Of a DNA stretch of 64,000 nt, positions 58,062 to 64,000 are shown one piece after another. The DNA lies in NCBI RefSeq assembly GCF_026130175.1, contig NZ_JAIGNI010000016.1, forward strand, positions 1 to 64,000, read 5' to 3'. Both the position numbers and the translations under genes were made by a program. The notes beneath the pieces are model-generated. The model did not search any database, was not told the origin of the DNA, and was given only the letters and a program-made list of their open reading frames with translations. This DNA is from Lyngbya sp. CCAP 1446/10 (GTDB lineage: Bacteria; Cyanobacteriota; Cyanobacteriia; Cyanobacteriales; Microcoleaceae). How positions within the stretch are numbered: the first letter of the stretch is position 1; each line of letters opens with the position of its first letter.

Positions 58062-58733
58062 GTGAATAGCAATCCCCCAGACGGAACATCAGTTAAAAAA
58101 TACGGTTTAGCCCTGCACACGGCAACTCCCGAATTAGGTTTAGCAATCAGCAATTTTGACGGCGATTCTCGCTACCAAACTTGGAATTTGGGCCGCAGTT
58201 TAGCCACAGATTTGCATCAGCATTTAGTAGAGTTTATCGCGCCGCAAACTTGGGCAAATTTGGCTTTTATTGCAGTGGCGAAGGGGCCCGGAGGTTTCAC
58301 GGGCACTCGCATGGGTATGGTGACAGCGCGGACTTTGGCTCAACAATTGAATATTCCGGTTTTTGCGGTTTCAACTTTGGCGGCTGTTGCTTGGTTGGAA
58401 CCCCCCCAACCCCCCCTTGATAAGGGGGGGCTTTTGGATATCGCGCTGCAAATGCCTGCACAGCGGGGGCAATTATTTGGGGCGGTTTATTCAGTTAACA
58501 GTAATTCTGGTTTAACTGAGTTGTTTCCAGATACGGTAATGACGGCGGAATCTTGGCAGGAAAAGTTGGCAAGTTGGGAAAATTCCTATCAGTTGATTGA
58601 AGTTGGCAGCGAGTTGGGTACGTCGGTTTCTGGTGTGTTGGATTTGGCTTATTTGGAGTGGAAACAAGGAAGTCGCCCTAATTGGTCGGATGCTTTGCCT
58701 TATTACGGGCAACATCCTGTGCAGGGAAAATGA
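58062..58733 (+). CDS. tsaB: tRNA threonylcarbamoyladenosine protein TsaB
   Basis: TsaB supports TsaD in making t6A37 on ANN-decoding tRNAs. The ASKHA-type fold starts KKYGLALHTATPELGLAISN, and AVAKGPGGFTGTRMGMVTAR is the TsaB signature. The start is GTG, 3 bp after the kinase stop. An in-frame insert encoding PPQPPLDKGG (58401-58430) interrupts the normal sequence after VAWLE and comes from a palindromic DNA repeat. Confidence 0.9.
   Translation: MNSNPPDGTSVKKYGLALHTATPELGLAISNFDGDSRYQTWNLGRSLATDLHQHLVEFIAPQTWANLAFIAVAKGPGGFTGTRMGMVTARTLAQQLNIPVFAVSTLAAVAWLEPPQPPLDKGGLLDIALQMPAQRGQLFGAVYSVNSNSGLTELFPDTVMTAESWQEKLASWENSYQLIEVGSELGTSVSGVLDLAYLEWKQGSRPNWSDALPYYGQHPVQGK
58401..58430 (+). repeat. 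Palindromic C/G-tract insert within tsaB
   Basis: CCCCCCC-AA-CCCCCCC-TTGATAA-GGGGGGG forms a strong hairpin and encodes PPQPPLDKGG. Related intergenic copies, CCCCCCTTGAAAAAGGGGGG, are at 61540-61570 and near 13949. Confidence 0.85.
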
Positions 58734-59016: not shown

Positions 59017-59640
59017 ATGGAAAATCGACTGACTCAAACTCAACTAACGCAAATAGTAGCTGAAGTACAACGCCTTTCTAACGTTCGGGAAGCTGAACTT
59101 AATTCCGCAGAAGTCACACAAATTTTGCAGGAATTGGGCTTGCCGACCGAGTTGCTAGATGAGGCTTTAATCCAGTTGCAGCGTCGGGAAGCACTGGCAC
59201 AGCAGCAACGCAGGAATCGGTGGATTGCTGGAGGATTGGCTGCGGTGGCTGTGGGGGCGATCGCCATTACCGGATTTTTCATTCAACAAAGCCGACAGGC
59301 CCTGGATCGCATTTCAGTGCAACAAAACCGCATAACTTCCGTACAAGATGATGGCGGCAACTTGACAGTTGTTTCCCGCCAAAACAATCCCGAAATCTTT
59401 TACCGCGTCACCTTAAAGGATGCACCTTTAGGAAAAAAACTCTCGCTATCCTGCGATTGGATCGATCCCAGCGGTCAAGTTGTCAAACAAAACAGCTATC
59501 AAACTCGCGAAATCGACAAATCTATCTGGAATACTCAATGCCGTTACAAAATTGGTACTGCGGCTACTCCCGGAAAGTGGCAAGTTAAAATGTTGGTTGA
59601 AAATCGGGCGATCGGTAGTACATCCTTTCAACTTAAATAA
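59017..59640 (+). CDS. Hypothetical single-pass membrane protein
   Basis: A helical N-terminal part (QTQLTQIVAEVQRL, EVTQILQELGLP, LLDEALIQLQRRE) precedes one transmembrane segment (residues about 69-90) and a beta-rich outer part with CDWIDPSG and NTQCRYK, whose two Cys may pair. Residues 100-207 resemble a small Ig-like domain. No known family was recognised. It ends 33 bp before the asparagine-synthetase-like gene on the same strand, so the two are probably cotranscribed. Confidence 0.65.
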   Translation: MENRLTQTQLTQIVAEVQRLSNVREAELNSAEVTQILQELGLPTELLDEALIQLQRREALAQQQRRNRWIAGGLAAVAVGAIAITGFFIQQSRQALDRISVQQNRITSVQDDGGNLTVVSRQNNPEIFYRVTLKDAPLGKKLSLSCDWIDPSGQVVKQNSYQTREIDKSIWNTQCRYKIGTAATPGKWQVKMLVENRAIGSTSFQLK

Positions 59641-59673: not shown

Positions 59674-61509
59674 ATGAAAATTACTAACAAACCGCGTCAA
59701 TTTGTAGGATACTGGGGCTGCGATTCTCGCGATAAATTGGAAGCGCGGCTGGCGAAAATTATCAGCAAATCTGGCGGAGAAATCCCAGTGCAAAAAATCG
59801 AGAATTCGTCTAATTTGTCCGCCGCAGGAAACGAAAATCACCCAATTTGGAATGTAGCGAGCACCGAGTGCGATCGCCCGCAGCACTTGCCAACCCAAAA
59901 AAGTGATAAAACTTGGCAAATCGCTGCCCTCTCAGCCTCTGGACTATCAACGTATCCATCAACCAACGGTTTGCTGTTACCTGATACCTGGGTAAATGTC
60001 CGCAAAAATTTCCTAATTTTAGGACGAGAACCCTTTGGGCGAGTAACACTTTACTGGACGCAAATCGAGCAGAGTATTTGGTTTGCATCGAGTTTACAAC
60101 TGCTGTTAAATATTTGCGAAAAACCAGATATCAGCATTCCAGGTTTGTACAGTTATAGCTGTTTTTCCTATGTCCCAACTCCCTTAACTCCCGTAGAAAA
60201 GGTGTTCGCCGTTCCCGCCGGAACCGAATTAACTTGGGAGTGCGATCGAGATAGCGGTGTTATTTTTAAACCCCCATCAAAACCCTTGTTAGAATGGCGA
60301 GAAATTTCAGAAGAAATACAAGACGAAGCAGCAGCCATAACAGAATTACAAGACTTACTTAAAAATGCTGTTGAACGTCAAATTTCCGATATAAATAGCC
60401 ATGAAACTGTCGGAGTATTTCTCTCAGGCGGTTTAGATTCCTCAATAGTCGCAGCTTTATTAGTCAAAGCCGGAGTCAAAGTCCGCGCTTATACTCTCGA
60501 CTTCGGCGAAGCCGGAATTCCCGAATATCCTTGGGCTCAACAAGTGGCCGATTCGCTGAAAATTCCCTTAGTAAAAGTAGATGCTACGCCACGCCGGATT
60601 AAACAAGTTTTGCATTCTGCTGTGAAAGCTTTAGATTTGCCCTTTGGCGACGGAGTTACAGTCCCACTTTACCTGTTAAATGAAGCTGCGAGTCAAGAAT
60701 GTGCGATCGTTTTTAACGGTGAAGGCGGCGATCAGTTATTTGCAGGATGGACGAATAAACCCCTGATTGCAGCGGCTGTTTATCAAGCCGCAAATCCCGC
60801 CGGAGACCAAACTTTTGCCCTGCAATATCTGCGAACTTTTCACCGACTTTGGGGATACGAATCTAAAGTTTATCAGCCGGAAATTTACACTGAAATTCAG
60901 AATGTGCAACCTCAAGATTGGCTGCTAGAGGCTCTTAATCCTGCGGTGGGCGGGTCTTTGCTGCATCGCCTCCGCCGCGCGAGTTTGATGCTGAAAGGGG
61001 CGCAGAACATCCATCCGCGCGCTGCTAATTTGGCTTTGGCTTTTGGTCTGAAAGTGCGATCGCCCTTTTGCGATTTTGCCCTCACAGATTGGACGTTTAA
61101 ACTGTCGGGAGAACTGTGTTTGCGAGGTGCTTGTGAGAAATACATCCTCAAACGGGCGGTAGAAAATTGGCTACCTGCGGACATAGTTTGGCGGGAAAAG
61201 CGCGGTATGGGCGTGCCGTTAACTTCCTGGTGTTTTAATGAATTTTGGCATGACATCGGCGATTGGTTGAATCCTGCCGTGTTGCAATCAGAGAAACACT
61301 GGCAACCCGATTTAGCCGCTCAACTTATCTCCGGCAAATTCGCAGCCGGAATTCAAGGCCGGCGCATTGGCGAGATGATTTGGCTGTTGGTGATGTGGCA
61401 AAATTGGCGATCGCAAATTCTAGGTGAAAAGGTGAAACACAAATCTTGGAATCATCCATTTTGGTTGCCTCGCCAGGTTTGGAATTACCGCCAACGGTGG
61501 GGAGAATAA
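59674..61509 (+). CDS. Asparagine-synthetase-like ATP ligase lacking the glutaminase Cys
   Basis: The C-terminal half is a full AsnB-type ATP-pyrophosphatase domain: SGGLDSS at 251-257, IVFNGEGGDQLFAGW, LKVRSPFCDFAL and KRGMGVP with K509. The N-terminal Ntn-type domain is kept in outline (FVGYWG at 10-15, LGREPFGRVTLYWTQ) but the protein starts MKITNKPR, so the Cys2 nucleophile needed to use glutamine is absent. In this state it would resemble beta-lactam synthetases and lasso-peptide cyclases, which use the fold to form amides by adenylation without glutamine. Substrate unknown. Confidence 0.85.
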   Translation: MKITNKPRQFVGYWGCDSRDKLEARLAKIISKSGGEIPVQKIENSSNLSAAGNENHPIWNVASTECDRPQHLPTQKSDKTWQIAALSASGLSTYPSTNGLLLPDTWVNVRKNFLILGREPFGRVTLYWTQIEQSIWFASSLQLLLNICEKPDISIPGLYSYSCFSYVPTPLTPVEKVFAVPAGTELTWECDRDSGVIFKPPSKPLLEWREISEEIQDEAAAITELQDLLKNAVERQISDINSHETVGVFLSGGLDSSIVAALLVKAGVKVRAYTLDFGEAGIPEYPWAQQVADSLKIPLVKVDATPRRIKQVLHSAVKALDLPFGDGVTVPLYLLNEAASQECAIVFNGEGGDQLFAGWTNKPLIAAAVYQAANPAGDQTFALQYLRTFHRLWGYESKVYQPEIYTEIQNVQPQDWLLEALNPAVGGSLLHRLRRASLMLKGAQNIHPRAANLALAFGLKVRSPFCDFALTDWTFKLSGELCLRGACEKYILKRAVENWLPADIVWREKRGMGVPLTSWCFNEFWHDIGDWLNPAVLQSEKHWQPDLAAQLISGKFAAGIQGRRIGEMIWLLVMWQNWRSQILGEKVKHKSWNHPFWLPRQVWNYRQRWGE

Positions 61510-61513
61510 AATT

Positions 61514-61651
61514 CAATACAGTTTAATTAAGCCTGATCCCCCCTAGCCCCCCTTGAAAAAGGGGGGAACAAGAAATTACTCAAAGTCCCCCTTCTTAAGG
61601 GGGATTTAGGGGGATCTCCGGGGAATAAAGATCATTAACTAAACCGTATTG
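61514..61651. mobile_element. MITE-like element family B, copy 3
   Basis: 138 bp between CAATACAGTTTAATTAAG and TTAACTAAACCGTATTG. Inside are two C/G-tract hairpins, CCCCCCTTGAAAAAGGGGGG and CCCCCTTCTTAAGGGGG. It fills most of the gap between the ligase and decarboxylase-like genes. Confidence 0.8.
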
Positions 61652-61697: not shown

Positions 61698-62936
61698 ATG
61701 CAAACAATTACCGATCGCAAATCAATCATCAAACAACCGCCTTTCACTCTTTCGCTAGCCCAAGAGTTATTAGCCACCTACGGTTCGCCGCTGTACGTTT
61801 ATCAAAGCGATATTTTGCGCCGAACTATTGCCCGCATTACCAAGGCAATTGACTATCCCAAAACTCAATTTTGTTTTGCCAGCGTCACCAACGGTAGCAT
61901 CGCCCTGCTGCAAATTTTTCAGGATTGCGGATGGGGATTACACGCCAATACACCAGGAGATATTTATTTAGGAATTCAAGCAGGTTTTTTGCCCAAAAAT
62001 ATCGTTTACAGCGGCAGCAATCTGCACCGAGGTGAGATGGAACAAGTTCTAAAATGGGGTGTCAAAACTCTGAATTTCGACAGTCTCGCTCAATTGCAGT
62101 TATGCTGCGAAGTGTACCAATCTCTCAGGGAAAACCAGCAGGCTTTAGAACCGCCCAGTCTGGGTTTGAGGCTGAATTTGCCCGAATTAACGGGGGATAG
62201 TCGCATTGGAGTGCGATCGTCCGAATTTCCCGCAGCAATTGCGATCGCCAAAACAGCCGGATTAAAGCTCACTGGCTTGCATTTTTATCGCGGAACCGGC
62301 ACTAATTCCACCGCAGCGTTTACTCAAGTAATTGATACGATAATTGCCACCGCGCAGCAATTGCCAGATTGGGAATATCTCGATTTTGGCGGCGGCTTTG
62401 GCTATCCTTACCAAGGCGGTATAGCGTTTGATTGGGAACTGTTTGGGGCAGAATTAACCAGCAGAATTAGTCAACTAGACCGCGAAATTGAGTTAATAAT
62501 TGAACCAGGAAGAGCCGCCATAGCAGGATGTGCTACTTTGCTCGCTCAAGTTGTTTCCACAAAATGGCAGTCAGCTAAACAAATTGTCGGTGTAGATACG
62601 ACTGTTGCCAATCTTTCAGTGCCGTCAGTTCATGGCGGTTATCGAGAGATTTGTACCTGGAATTGTCGGGATGCTCTACATTTTACTGATATTTGTGGCA
62701 ATACGACTTATTCGCGGGATTATCTGGGGAAAAACTGTCAACTTCCGGCTTTGGCAATTGGGGAAATTCTTGGTATTTTGGATGTGGGAGCTTACGGATA
62801 TGCCATGTCGTCGCACTTTTTACACCGCCCCAAACCTGCGGAAGTGCTGTTAGAAAATGGCGGTCATCGGCTAATTCGCCACAGAGAAGATTACAGCGTT
62901 TTGTTAGCAAATCAAGTTTTTTTGAACAATCACTAG
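61698..62936 (+). CDS. Fold-III PLP decarboxylase homologue with active-site Lys and Cys replaced
   Basis: The 412-residue protein aligns along its length with diaminopimelate/ornithine-type decarboxylases: GSPLYVYQSDILRRTI, AGFLPKNIVYSGSN, TLNFDSLAQL, LDFGGGFGYPY, the PLP-phosphate motif EPGR at 269-272 and GAYGYAMSSHF. In the family motif YA-x-K-AN the PLP Lys forms the Schiff base; here the segment is FASVTN with Val63 at that place. The CES-x-D motif with the catalytic Cys is TYSRD, with Thr337. The protein can therefore hardly act as a normal decarboxylase. It may bind a ligand or the ligase product. Confidence 0.87.
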   Translation: MQTITDRKSIIKQPPFTLSLAQELLATYGSPLYVYQSDILRRTIARITKAIDYPKTQFCFASVTNGSIALLQIFQDCGWGLHANTPGDIYLGIQAGFLPKNIVYSGSNLHRGEMEQVLKWGVKTLNFDSLAQLQLCCEVYQSLRENQQALEPPSLGLRLNLPELTGDSRIGVRSSEFPAAIAIAKTAGLKLTGLHFYRGTGTNSTAAFTQVIDTIIATAQQLPDWEYLDFGGGFGYPYQGGIAFDWELFGAELTSRISQLDREIELIIEPGRAAIAGCATLLAQVVSTKWQSAKQIVGVDTTVANLSVPSVHGGYREICTWNCRDALHFTDICGNTTYSRDYLGKNCQLPALAIGEILGILDVGAYGYAMSSHFLHRPKPAEVLLENGGHRLIRHREDYSVLLANQVFLNNH

Positions 62937-62945: not shown

Positions 62946-64000
62946 ATGAAGTGCATTAAATGCCAAACTGACAATAAGTTAAAAGAGCGCACAGCCAATG
63001 GTGGTCGCTGTAAACAATGCAATCATAAGTTTGCTTTTGAACCGACTGCTATGACTGATCTCAAAATAACTGACTCCATGTTTGCCAAGGCGATTACCGA
63101 TGTTTCTGTGAACGATACGCTGTTTTTTACTCCCCGACAGTTATTTTACTTTCTAGATCAGCGATCTAGAGTACAAAATGAGAATTTGTTTGGCTTGGTT
63201 TATCAGTGTATGTTTTATAATTTTTGGAGCTTTTTTTTTGGTGGTATGTTTTTATTATCTTCTGGAATGACAAATGAATTTATTTGCGCCATGTTCGCAT
63301 TAAATAGTTTATTGTTAGCGGTATTTTTTGTTAAAAGTCGTTCTAGCAAATATTCATATAAACAACGCCAGACTTTTGCAAGAGTTTTGCAAGTTTGGGG
63401 AGGAATAGTTCTGGTGTGCGGAATTGGCTTTAGTCAGTTGCTATATTCCTCTGTAGTGCTTGTCGCTAGTTCTGCGATCGGAATCCTATCTATCTATTTC
63501 GGAAGCCTAAAAATTCCTAAAGTAACTCAAGAAGTTATTATTACAGACAGGCTGTTTCAATACTGGATTAATAAGTGGACAGAAATCAACTCCTCGATCG
63601 CAAAAATGCTGCCTTCTCCCCGCGATACAAATAAAAACGCTGCCGTCAGTCCCGATGTCAGCGCTTACAGTTTTGACAGATTAGTTGTGTGCGATCGCCC
63701 GGAAATTGCCCAATTTTTAATCGCCAACAATTTTCACTTTGAAAACAACTGTGCAGTCCTCAGCATTACCGGATATCCTCAAAGTATCTTTGATACAACG
63801 ATGGAAATGCTGCGCCGCAATCCCGACTTAAAAGTGTACGCTTTGCACGATTGCAGTCCCAAAGGAATTGGTTTAGTTAATCACCTACGCACGAGTTCTA
63901 ATTGGTTCCCAAATAACAGGGCGATAATTATTGATATCGGATTGTTACCGAAGCAAATTCTGGCGGGTGGCGGCAGTATGTTGGTTATGAGTTCTCAGGA
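62946..64000 (+). CDS. Zinc-ribbon membrane protein, 3' end outside the window
   Basis: The frame is open from ATG 62946 to the window end (351 codons). C3-x2-C6 and C22-x2-C25 form a zinc ribbon. Hydrophobic stretches lie at residues about 88-125 and 140-185, so two hairpin membrane segments are likely. The soluble part beyond residue 240 has FDRLVVCDRPEIAQFLIANNF, VYALHDCSPKGIGLVNHL and AIIIDIGLLPKQIL, an alpha/beta pattern vaguely like a Toprim fold. Not recognised. It starts 9 bp after the preceding gene and shares its transcript. Confidence 0.75.
   Translation, partial: MKCIKCQTDNKLKERTANGGRCKQCNHKFAFEPTAMTDLKITDSMFAKAITDVSVNDTLFFTPRQLFYFLDQRSRVQNENLFGLVYQCMFYNFWSFFFGGMFLLSSGMTNEFICAMFALNSLLLAVFFVKSRSSKYSYKQRQTFARVLQVWGGIVLVCGIGFSQLLYSSVVLVASSAIGILSIYFGSLKIPKVTQEVIITDRLFQYWINKWTEINSSIAKMLPSPRDTNKNAAVSPDVSAYSFDRLVVCDRPEIAQFLIANNFHFENNCAVLSITGYPQSIFDTTMEMLRRNPDLKVYALHDCSPKGIGLVNHLRTSSNWFPNNRAIIIDIGLLPKQILAGGGSMLVMSSQ

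Follow-up and report, generated by a model that had tools for sequence, protein, structure and literature searches.

A Conserved Cyanobacterial Fold-III Decarboxylase Homologue without Schiff-Base Lysine and Catalytic Cysteine, and Its Asparagine-Synthetase-Like and Zinc-Ribbon Partners

The 64,000-nucleotide stretch of Lyngbya sp. CCAP 1446/10 DNA analysed here (the window) encodes a homologue of the fold-III decarboxylases, PSD, that has lost both the Schiff-base lysine and the catalytic cysteine and occurs in the same cyanobacterial genomes as two further proteins, AsnB1 and ZR. A selected role for PSD is well supported, and the chemistry of that role we infer. We tentatively favour the reading that PSD is an ancient fold-III pseudoenzyme that serves as a ligand-sensing, ligand-presenting or scaffolding subunit of an obligate system of five proteins (DufA, AsnB1, PSD, ZR and AsnB2), in which the AsnB-like ligases would act on the tail of ZR. 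The strongest evidence that PSD is functional is provided by the partner genes, which lay outside the view of the first-pass annotation of this DNA. The features are as follows.

59017..59640, + strand: DufA, 207 aa, with a short N-terminal part, one likely membrane helix and a C-terminal sandwich-like domain; weak Pfam matches only
59674..61509, + strand: AsnB1, asparagine-synthetase-like, 611 aa, no N-terminal Cys; PF00733 with 189 bits, ATP and synthetase motifs kept
61698..62936, + strand: PSD, Lys-less and Cys-less fold-III (Orn/DAP/Arg decarboxylase 2) homologue, 412 aa; ATG start, zero internal stops
61884..61886, + strand: Val63 codon GTC, position of the Schiff-base Lys; V in 121/121 sequences, K in 12/12 aligned Lys-bearing relatives
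61941..61943, + strand: His82, a position that is D/E in Lys-bearing relatives; H in 121/121
62388..62396, + strand: Gly231-233, kept glycine loop of the PLP-phosphate cradle; G in 121/121 at each position (role as described for FigC in the cited part of PMC7857480)
62502..62513, + strand: EPGR 269-272, kept pyridine-N Glu and phosphate Arg; E269 and R272 in 121/121 (roles from the same part of PMC7857480)
62706..62708, + strand: Thr337 codon ACT, position of the catalytic Cys; T in 120/120 with a letter there
62793..62795, + strand: Tyr366, kept PLP-phosphate Tyr; Y in 120/120 with a letter there
62946..64000, + strand: ZR, truncated by the end of the window (complete ORF G000:C54:62946-64238, 430 aa); contains CxxC..CxxC, a TOPRIM-like domain and four long helices, and has a tail of variable sequence
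C54:64312-65604, + strand: second ZR, full ORF, downstream outside the window
C54:65828-67639, - strand: AsnB2, full ORF, downstream outside the window

The Open Reading Frame and Its Fold

Both Pfam domains of the family are matched by PSD (PF02784 with 79.7 bits against a cut-off of 23.4, PF00278 with 46 bits against 23), and its score against the lysA equivalog of NCBIfam, TIGR01048, is 224.9 bits, under the cut-off of 297.9. A genuine LysA, 30% identical to PSD, is encoded elsewhere in the genome and passes this cut-off with 475 bits. The first-pass annotation had placed Val63 at the Schiff-base lysine and Thr337 at the catalytic cysteine. This was borne out by the codons and by a phmmer alignment to the DAP decarboxylase 2p3e, in which FCFASVTN of PSD falls on the YAVKAN lysine motif and GNTTYSRD on GPICETGD. 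The fold-III landmarks that it had listed are also present, with GGGFGYPY at residues 231-238, EPGR at 269-272 and GAYGYAMS at 364-371. An AlphaFold monomer model has an intact fold, with the alanine-racemase-type barrel and the C-terminal sheet domain both recovered in Foldseek and VIA comparisons, which report fold likeness and not function. Loops 237-240, 310-314 and 367-374 beside the cofactor cradle have a pLDDT below 50 in this monomer model.

At one locus (L128 9384-11009, genome G099) the two pieces in which PSD is found share an open frame of 550 aa, so that a putative in-frame insert of about 90 residues would lie directly before the GNTTYSRD motif. Between AsnB1 and PSD the window contains an inverted-repeat-like stretch rich in CCCCCT/AGGGGG (61535-61630). 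Similar repeats are apparently translated in frame inside a tsaB-like ORF (58062-58733, PPQPPLDKGG) and, at Nostoc loci such as L011 and L025, within the N-terminal region of AsnB1 (NLSPNLSP...GKGVRGLG).

Loss of the Lysine and the Cysteine Is Conserved in Cyanobacteria

Val63 is present in all 121 cyanobacterial PSD sequences (codons GTC, GTT, GTG and GTA 41, 46, 22 and 12 times), a number reached by adding 40 sequences to the genome-contig set; the two collections share some genomes (L106 and L130 are the same gene), and the number is not one of independent genomes. Thr337 is likewise found in each of the 120 sequences with a letter at that position, L128 being gapped. When only the genome-contig loci are counted, both residues are found in 80/80 (the best 80 of 87 loci, all with cyanobacterial titles). 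None of the 121 sequences has a lysine at position 63, which rules out a strain-specific mutation. Purifying selection is indicated by NG86 dN/dS ratios of 0.087-0.199 in 10 of 11 pairs; the remaining, very close pair gave 0.377 with a dS of 0.044.

We aligned 12 Lys-bearing relatives with 29 Lys-less rows (26 cyanobacterial and three rhizobial). The lysine column of this 41-row alignment holds K in 12/12 Lys-bearing relatives and V or M in 29/29 Lys-less rows. The catalytic cysteine is also absent from 4/12 Lys-bearing relatives, and its loss alone is therefore less telling. A replacement lysine in the pocket, the other way in which the first reading might have failed, was sought by alignment across the 121 sequences and none stands out; the sole invariant lysine is K289, whose column is also K in 10/12 Lys-bearing relatives.

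Intermediate forms were looked for in a survey of 290 genomes of the class, in which 40 PSD genomes score at least 539 bits and the next best among the matches listed scores 103 bits. Six of the next-best loci are L113-L118, and the four of them that were aligned all carry the lysine. They include two further cyanobacterial fold-III families, one at L113-L115 (G002, G054, G026) and one at L117 and L118 (G221, G151). The four aligned rows (L113, L114, L117, L118) have Asn or Pro at the position of the catalytic cysteine, and the lysA equivalog scores of L113 (215.8 bits) and L117 (276.5 bits) are both under the cut-off of 297.9. A scan of viral contigs, for which the Lys-less alignment served as query, yielded 39 pattern matches, none of them a relative.

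Partner Genes and Co-Occurrence

The usual gene order is DufA, AsnB1, PSD and ZR, and AsnB2 is often convergent. Around the best 80 of 87 PSD loci, many of which end at contig ends and limit the neighbour counts, an AsnB-like ORF was found in 76, ZR in 73, DufA in 69 and all of these in 63. The C-terminal domain of DufA is DUF3859-like in a relative, below the cut-off.

Among the 290 Cyanobacteriia genomes, PSD, ZR and AsnB1 occur in the identical 40, with the PSD set split by bit score (at least 539 bits) after the scores had been seen and the partners called at pre-set thresholds (ZR 1e-10, DufA 1e-8, AsnB1 1e-100, AsnB2 1e-150). AsnB2 is found in 43 genomes and DufA in 46, both including those 40, and they thus occur without the rest of the set in three and six genomes, respectively. 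Linkage alone is insufficient to produce matching genome sets, because in some genomes the partners lie far apart on single contigs: the distance to PSD is 3.0 Mb for ZR (G182), 1.3 Mb for AsnB1 and DufA (G189) and 0.56-4.4 Mb for AsnB2 (G182, G189, G271, G141 and G255). In G213, ZR lies at a distance of 49 kb.

In-frame stops were seen in AsnB1 and AsnB2 of G255, in AsnB2 of G213 and in one ZR copy of G203. In G255 this could mean that the system is decaying. Only part of ZR was recovered from G010 and from G224, where the gene probably runs into a contig end in each case. In Gloeothece verrucosa PCC 7822 the five genes lie together on plasmid Cy782202, which is typed as conjugative, with a DufA 53% identical to that of the window; carriage on such plasmids may account for the patchy spread of the set. 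This plasmid (L132) is linear, and a protelomerase gene lies a few kb from the five genes.

Judged by titles and the starts of abstracts, no paper on the five-gene set was found in the open-access literature. A link to diazotrophy was considered and set aside as too weak: nifD (E <= 1e-100) is present in 20/40 PSD genomes and 78/250 others (Fisher p = 0.03, uncorrected for phylogeny), and the genome of the window has no nifD. A role as a defence system was also considered, and PADLOC gave nothing specific. It returned no match for PSD, ZR or DufA, and the QueC matches of AsnB1 (E 9e-6) and AsnB2 (E 0.021) are expected because the PP-loop is shared.

The Asparagine-Synthetase-Like Proteins and the Tail of ZR

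AsnB1 and AsnB2 keep the SGGLDSS and NGEGGD motifs and the EK..LK / RxK.GM region, and in neither is position 2 a Cys; a single row among the 50 of the AsnB2 set begins with MC, from an over-extended start. The two groups (66 and 49 ORFs) were separated by a simple N-terminal motif, so that a few truncated AsnB1 are possibly counted in the second. Since Cys2 is absent and the synthetase motifs are kept, both look like glutaminase-dead synthetases that would be supplied with ammonia or some other amine.

ZR has four invariant cysteines (positions 3, 6, 22 and 25; 16 rows). Its structural model, which is poor overall (pLDDT 64.6, pTM 0.42), consists of four long helices (81-187), an alpha/beta domain (245-404) and a tail (405-430) of very low confidence (<50). 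The domain gave a weak Foldseek match to the TOPRIM domain of Topo VI A (E 4.9e-5, query TM 0.29), and one ZR copy scores above the Pfam TOPRIM cut-off (28.9 versus 24.1 bits). A role in DNA work was nevertheless set aside, as in our reading one of the two TOPRIM acids looks replaced (HDCSP). A reading of ZR as a LysW-type carrier, raised by the zinc ribbon and the conserved tail, was likewise considered and not retained.

Phe-Gly ends 114 of 116 distinct ZR tails (from 124 complete ORF ends), the exceptions being QKC and SLG; matches short of residue 395, running off a locus edge or with masked tails were left out of this count. A looser count gave Phe-Gly in 122/131. Position -3 is Ser in 84% of the tails, and apart from it and FG itself the positions of the last 30 have an identity of at most 75%. 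ZR of the window ends in Ser-Phe-Gly.

ZR is found in tandem copies at several loci. At L073, L065 and L045 several tandem copies, some of them truncated, retain Phe-Gly, and others in L073 are broken or masked. In the genome of the window the tandem copies (L129 10947-12239 and 12313-13605) both end in VVDSFG; their C-terminal halves are almost identical and their N-terminal halves diverged, as if the former had possibly been homogenised by gene conversion.

Lys-Less Relatives in Rhizobia

The survey for Lys-less relatives covered Cyanobacteria and plasmid records. By tblastn against plasmids, relatives were found in Mesorhizobium huakuii p_3 (a Mesorhizobium loti record is 100% identical), Sinorhizobium meliloti GR4 and S. 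medicae T10. Another, on pMHb of M. huakuii 7653R, has 98% identity and is in four pieces. The three aligned relatives have Met at the lysine position (FATMAN) and Thr at the cysteine position ([ST]T[YF]SRD). The FASVTN and TYSRD motifs, whose conservation had been proposed as a check of function, are conserved in a clade that reaches the Alphaproteobacteria. In maximum-likelihood trees of the 41 rows the rhizobial and cyanobacterial Lys-less proteins form one clade with a support of 100/97 (99/92 without the trait columns), which calls for caution since these trees contain long branches.

The rhizobial proteins (P0001 and P0002, annotated as 'alanine racemase' and 'diaminopimelate decarboxylase') share the FATM and [ST]T[YF]SRD motifs with PSD, but are only about 30% identical to it, and their neighbours are radical SAM proteins instead of AsnB and ZR. 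One of these neighbours is of the PqqE/mycofactocin-like type; the other is a B12 radical SAM protein whose best NCBIfam match is the RiPP enzyme ApyD (298.1 and 239.1 bits, under the cut-off of 750). The S. meliloti cluster also encodes a protein of 109 aa that matches PqqD below the threshold (20.8 versus 23.4 bits). The homologues at L131 5962-7155 and L133 5974-7080 sit within such radical SAM gene clusters, and the Mesorhizobium cluster additionally contains a sub-threshold BtrH_N protein (27.9 versus 29.7 bits) and a TldD-like protein.

The Cofactor Cradle and Alternative Explanations

In ornithine decarboxylase (ODC) the residues that stabilise PLP include Asp88, Glu94, Arg154, His197, Gly235-237, Glu274, Arg277 and Tyr389, as given in the cited part of PMC5518511, and the excerpt of PMC7857480 assigns the same PLP-contact roles in FigC. 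The PSD equivalents of ODC Arg154, the Gly loop, Glu274, Arg277 and Tyr389, mapped by motif order since ODC is outside the alignment, are R158, G231-233, E269, R272 and Y366, and all are identical in 29/29 Lys-less rows. The acidic positions have changed. Position 82 is D/E in 12/12 Lys-bearing rows and acidic in 0/29 Lys-less rows, with His in 26/26 cyanobacterial and Phe or Cys in 3/3 rhizobial rows. The next acidic position (PSD 88) is E in 12/12 Lys-bearing, Asp in 26/26 cyanobacterial and His in 3/3 rhizobial rows. Tyr197 stands where His is expected, but it is common also to 5/12 Lys-bearing relatives and hence not special.

PSD might be active without a Schiff-base lysine, for example as a PMP-type or non-PLP enzyme using His82, Tyr197, Thr337, Tyr338 and Arg340, which we regard as unlikely but worth serious attention. 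Enzymes of fold I in which Lys was replaced by His and which use PMP are a precedent. The pocket is not blank, as H82, N84, D88, Y197 and CGNTTYS never vary among the PSD sequences with a letter at these positions, and each lineage has a His at one of the two acidic positions. Against catalysis, the substrate side has changed as well (the substrate-side Arg of DAP decarboxylase is V or A in 26/26 cyanobacterial rows), Arg340 is Gly in 2/120 sequences, and the cyanobacterial and rhizobial lineages differ at most such sites.

Strict co-occurrence and close gene order would also suit a purely structural scaffold for AsnB1/AsnB2 or ZR, with the cradle residues kept for folding alone. We consider this quite unlikely, given that the residues that contact the phosphate and the ring nitrogen of PLP (E269, R272, G231-233 and Y366) are invariant in the Lys-less rows. 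Antizyme inhibitor, a homologue that has lost PLP binding, is by comparison changed at 5/16 PLP-binding positions, according to the cited part of PMC3543441.

It is still more improbable that PSD is a prozyme-like inactive partner that modulates the genuine LysA by forming heterodimers with it. In fold III the active sites are built at the interface between the two subunits (PMC7857480), a genuine LysA is available in the same genome, and Arg169 and Asp341, which correspond by motif to the ODC dimer salt bridge, are invariant in 29/29 Lys-less rows. However, with Lys and Cys both gone, PSD could not supply its share of either site in a mixed dimer. Moreover, PSD tracks AsnB1 and ZR (40, 40 and 40 genomes), whereas decarboxylase-family matches (E <= 1e-10) are present in 286/290 genomes.

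Lastly, a decaying pseudogene or a sequencing error, which the loss of two catalytic residues might suggest, is practically inconceivable and is refuted by Val63 in 121/121 sequences, dN/dS mostly of 0.09-0.20, full-length frames and the strict partner set, the same evidence that supports the selected new role put forward in the first-pass annotation.

Proposed Role of PSD in a Five-Protein System

According to the pseudoenzyme reading that we favour, PSD would have dropped Schiff-base and carbanion chemistry and retained the phosphate and ring cradle. Because the cradle is kept and the lysine chemistry lost, PSD would most likely bind a phosphorylated, PLP- or PMP-like ligand non-covalently and then regulate or present it. 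The five proteins would form a physical complex, and the carboxylate of the ZR tail would be the substrate of AsnB1/AsnB2. The latter is suggested by the combination of a glutaminase-less, carboxylate-activating pair with a co-inherited flexible tail that has a fixed C-terminal Gly. Alternatively, the FG end could serve as a tether for docking and not as a substrate. A more specific proposal, which we hold to be doubtful, is a new C-terminal protein-modification or conjugation system in which AsnB1/AsnB2 join the Phe-Gly carboxylate of ZR to an amine and PSD holds a phosphorylated PMP-like donor.

Comparison with Known Systems

PSD differs from LysA and from BtrK, an L-glutamyl-ACP decarboxylase, as it lacks the Schiff-base lysine and the catalytic cysteine. 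In being retained for a role other than catalysis, this homologue of the fold-III decarboxylases resembles antizyme inhibitor (AZI/AZIN). AZI, however, is eukaryotic and linked to antizyme, and in the cited part of PMC3543441 it keeps Lys and Cys with few exceptions and loses PLP contacts, which is the reverse of PSD.

AS-like enzymes that act on peptide C-termini include PesC (nitrile formation) and TsrC and ScdTA (amidation), and lasso cyclases are cited beside them (PMC13060819, in the part considered). AsnB1 and AsnB2 share the synthetase motifs with these relatives, but score far below the cut-off of 525 of the lasso cyclase family NF033535 (48.4 and 182.5 bits). Their putative activity would also be directed at a long membrane-type protein instead of a peptide.

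An AsnB-like protein adjoining a fold-III decarboxylase is also found in the exosortase-A/PEP-CTERM pair (TIGR03108 and TIGR03099). The cut-off of TIGR03108 (816.9) is missed by AsnB1 (151.8 bits) and AsnB2 (258.1 bits), that of TIGR03099 (478.45) by PSD (89.1 bits), and the exosortase-associated decarboxylase (L146) keeps the lysine. Membership in the exosortase/PEP-CTERM pathway was therefore rejected.

Implications

The database names 'decarboxylase', 'alanine racemase' and 'diaminopimelate decarboxylase' mislabel the Lys-less proteins. Selection has fixed the reverse of the antizyme-inhibitor pattern in many cyanobacteria, which offers a natural test of a PLP cradle without its lysine. Since PSD shares its genomes exactly with AsnB1 and ZR, what looked like an oddity becomes part of a five-part system that can be tested. 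One concrete chemical question is posed by the invariant Phe-Gly at the end of ZR: is its carboxylate modified? The PSD family would be a pseudoenzyme of the PLP fold, and the five-part set, if it modifies the tail, would be functionally new in kind. If this is true, the fold-III PLP family would have been recruited before the cyanobacterial/rhizobial split to assist enzymes that modify proteins or peptides, as a partner that forms no Schiff base.
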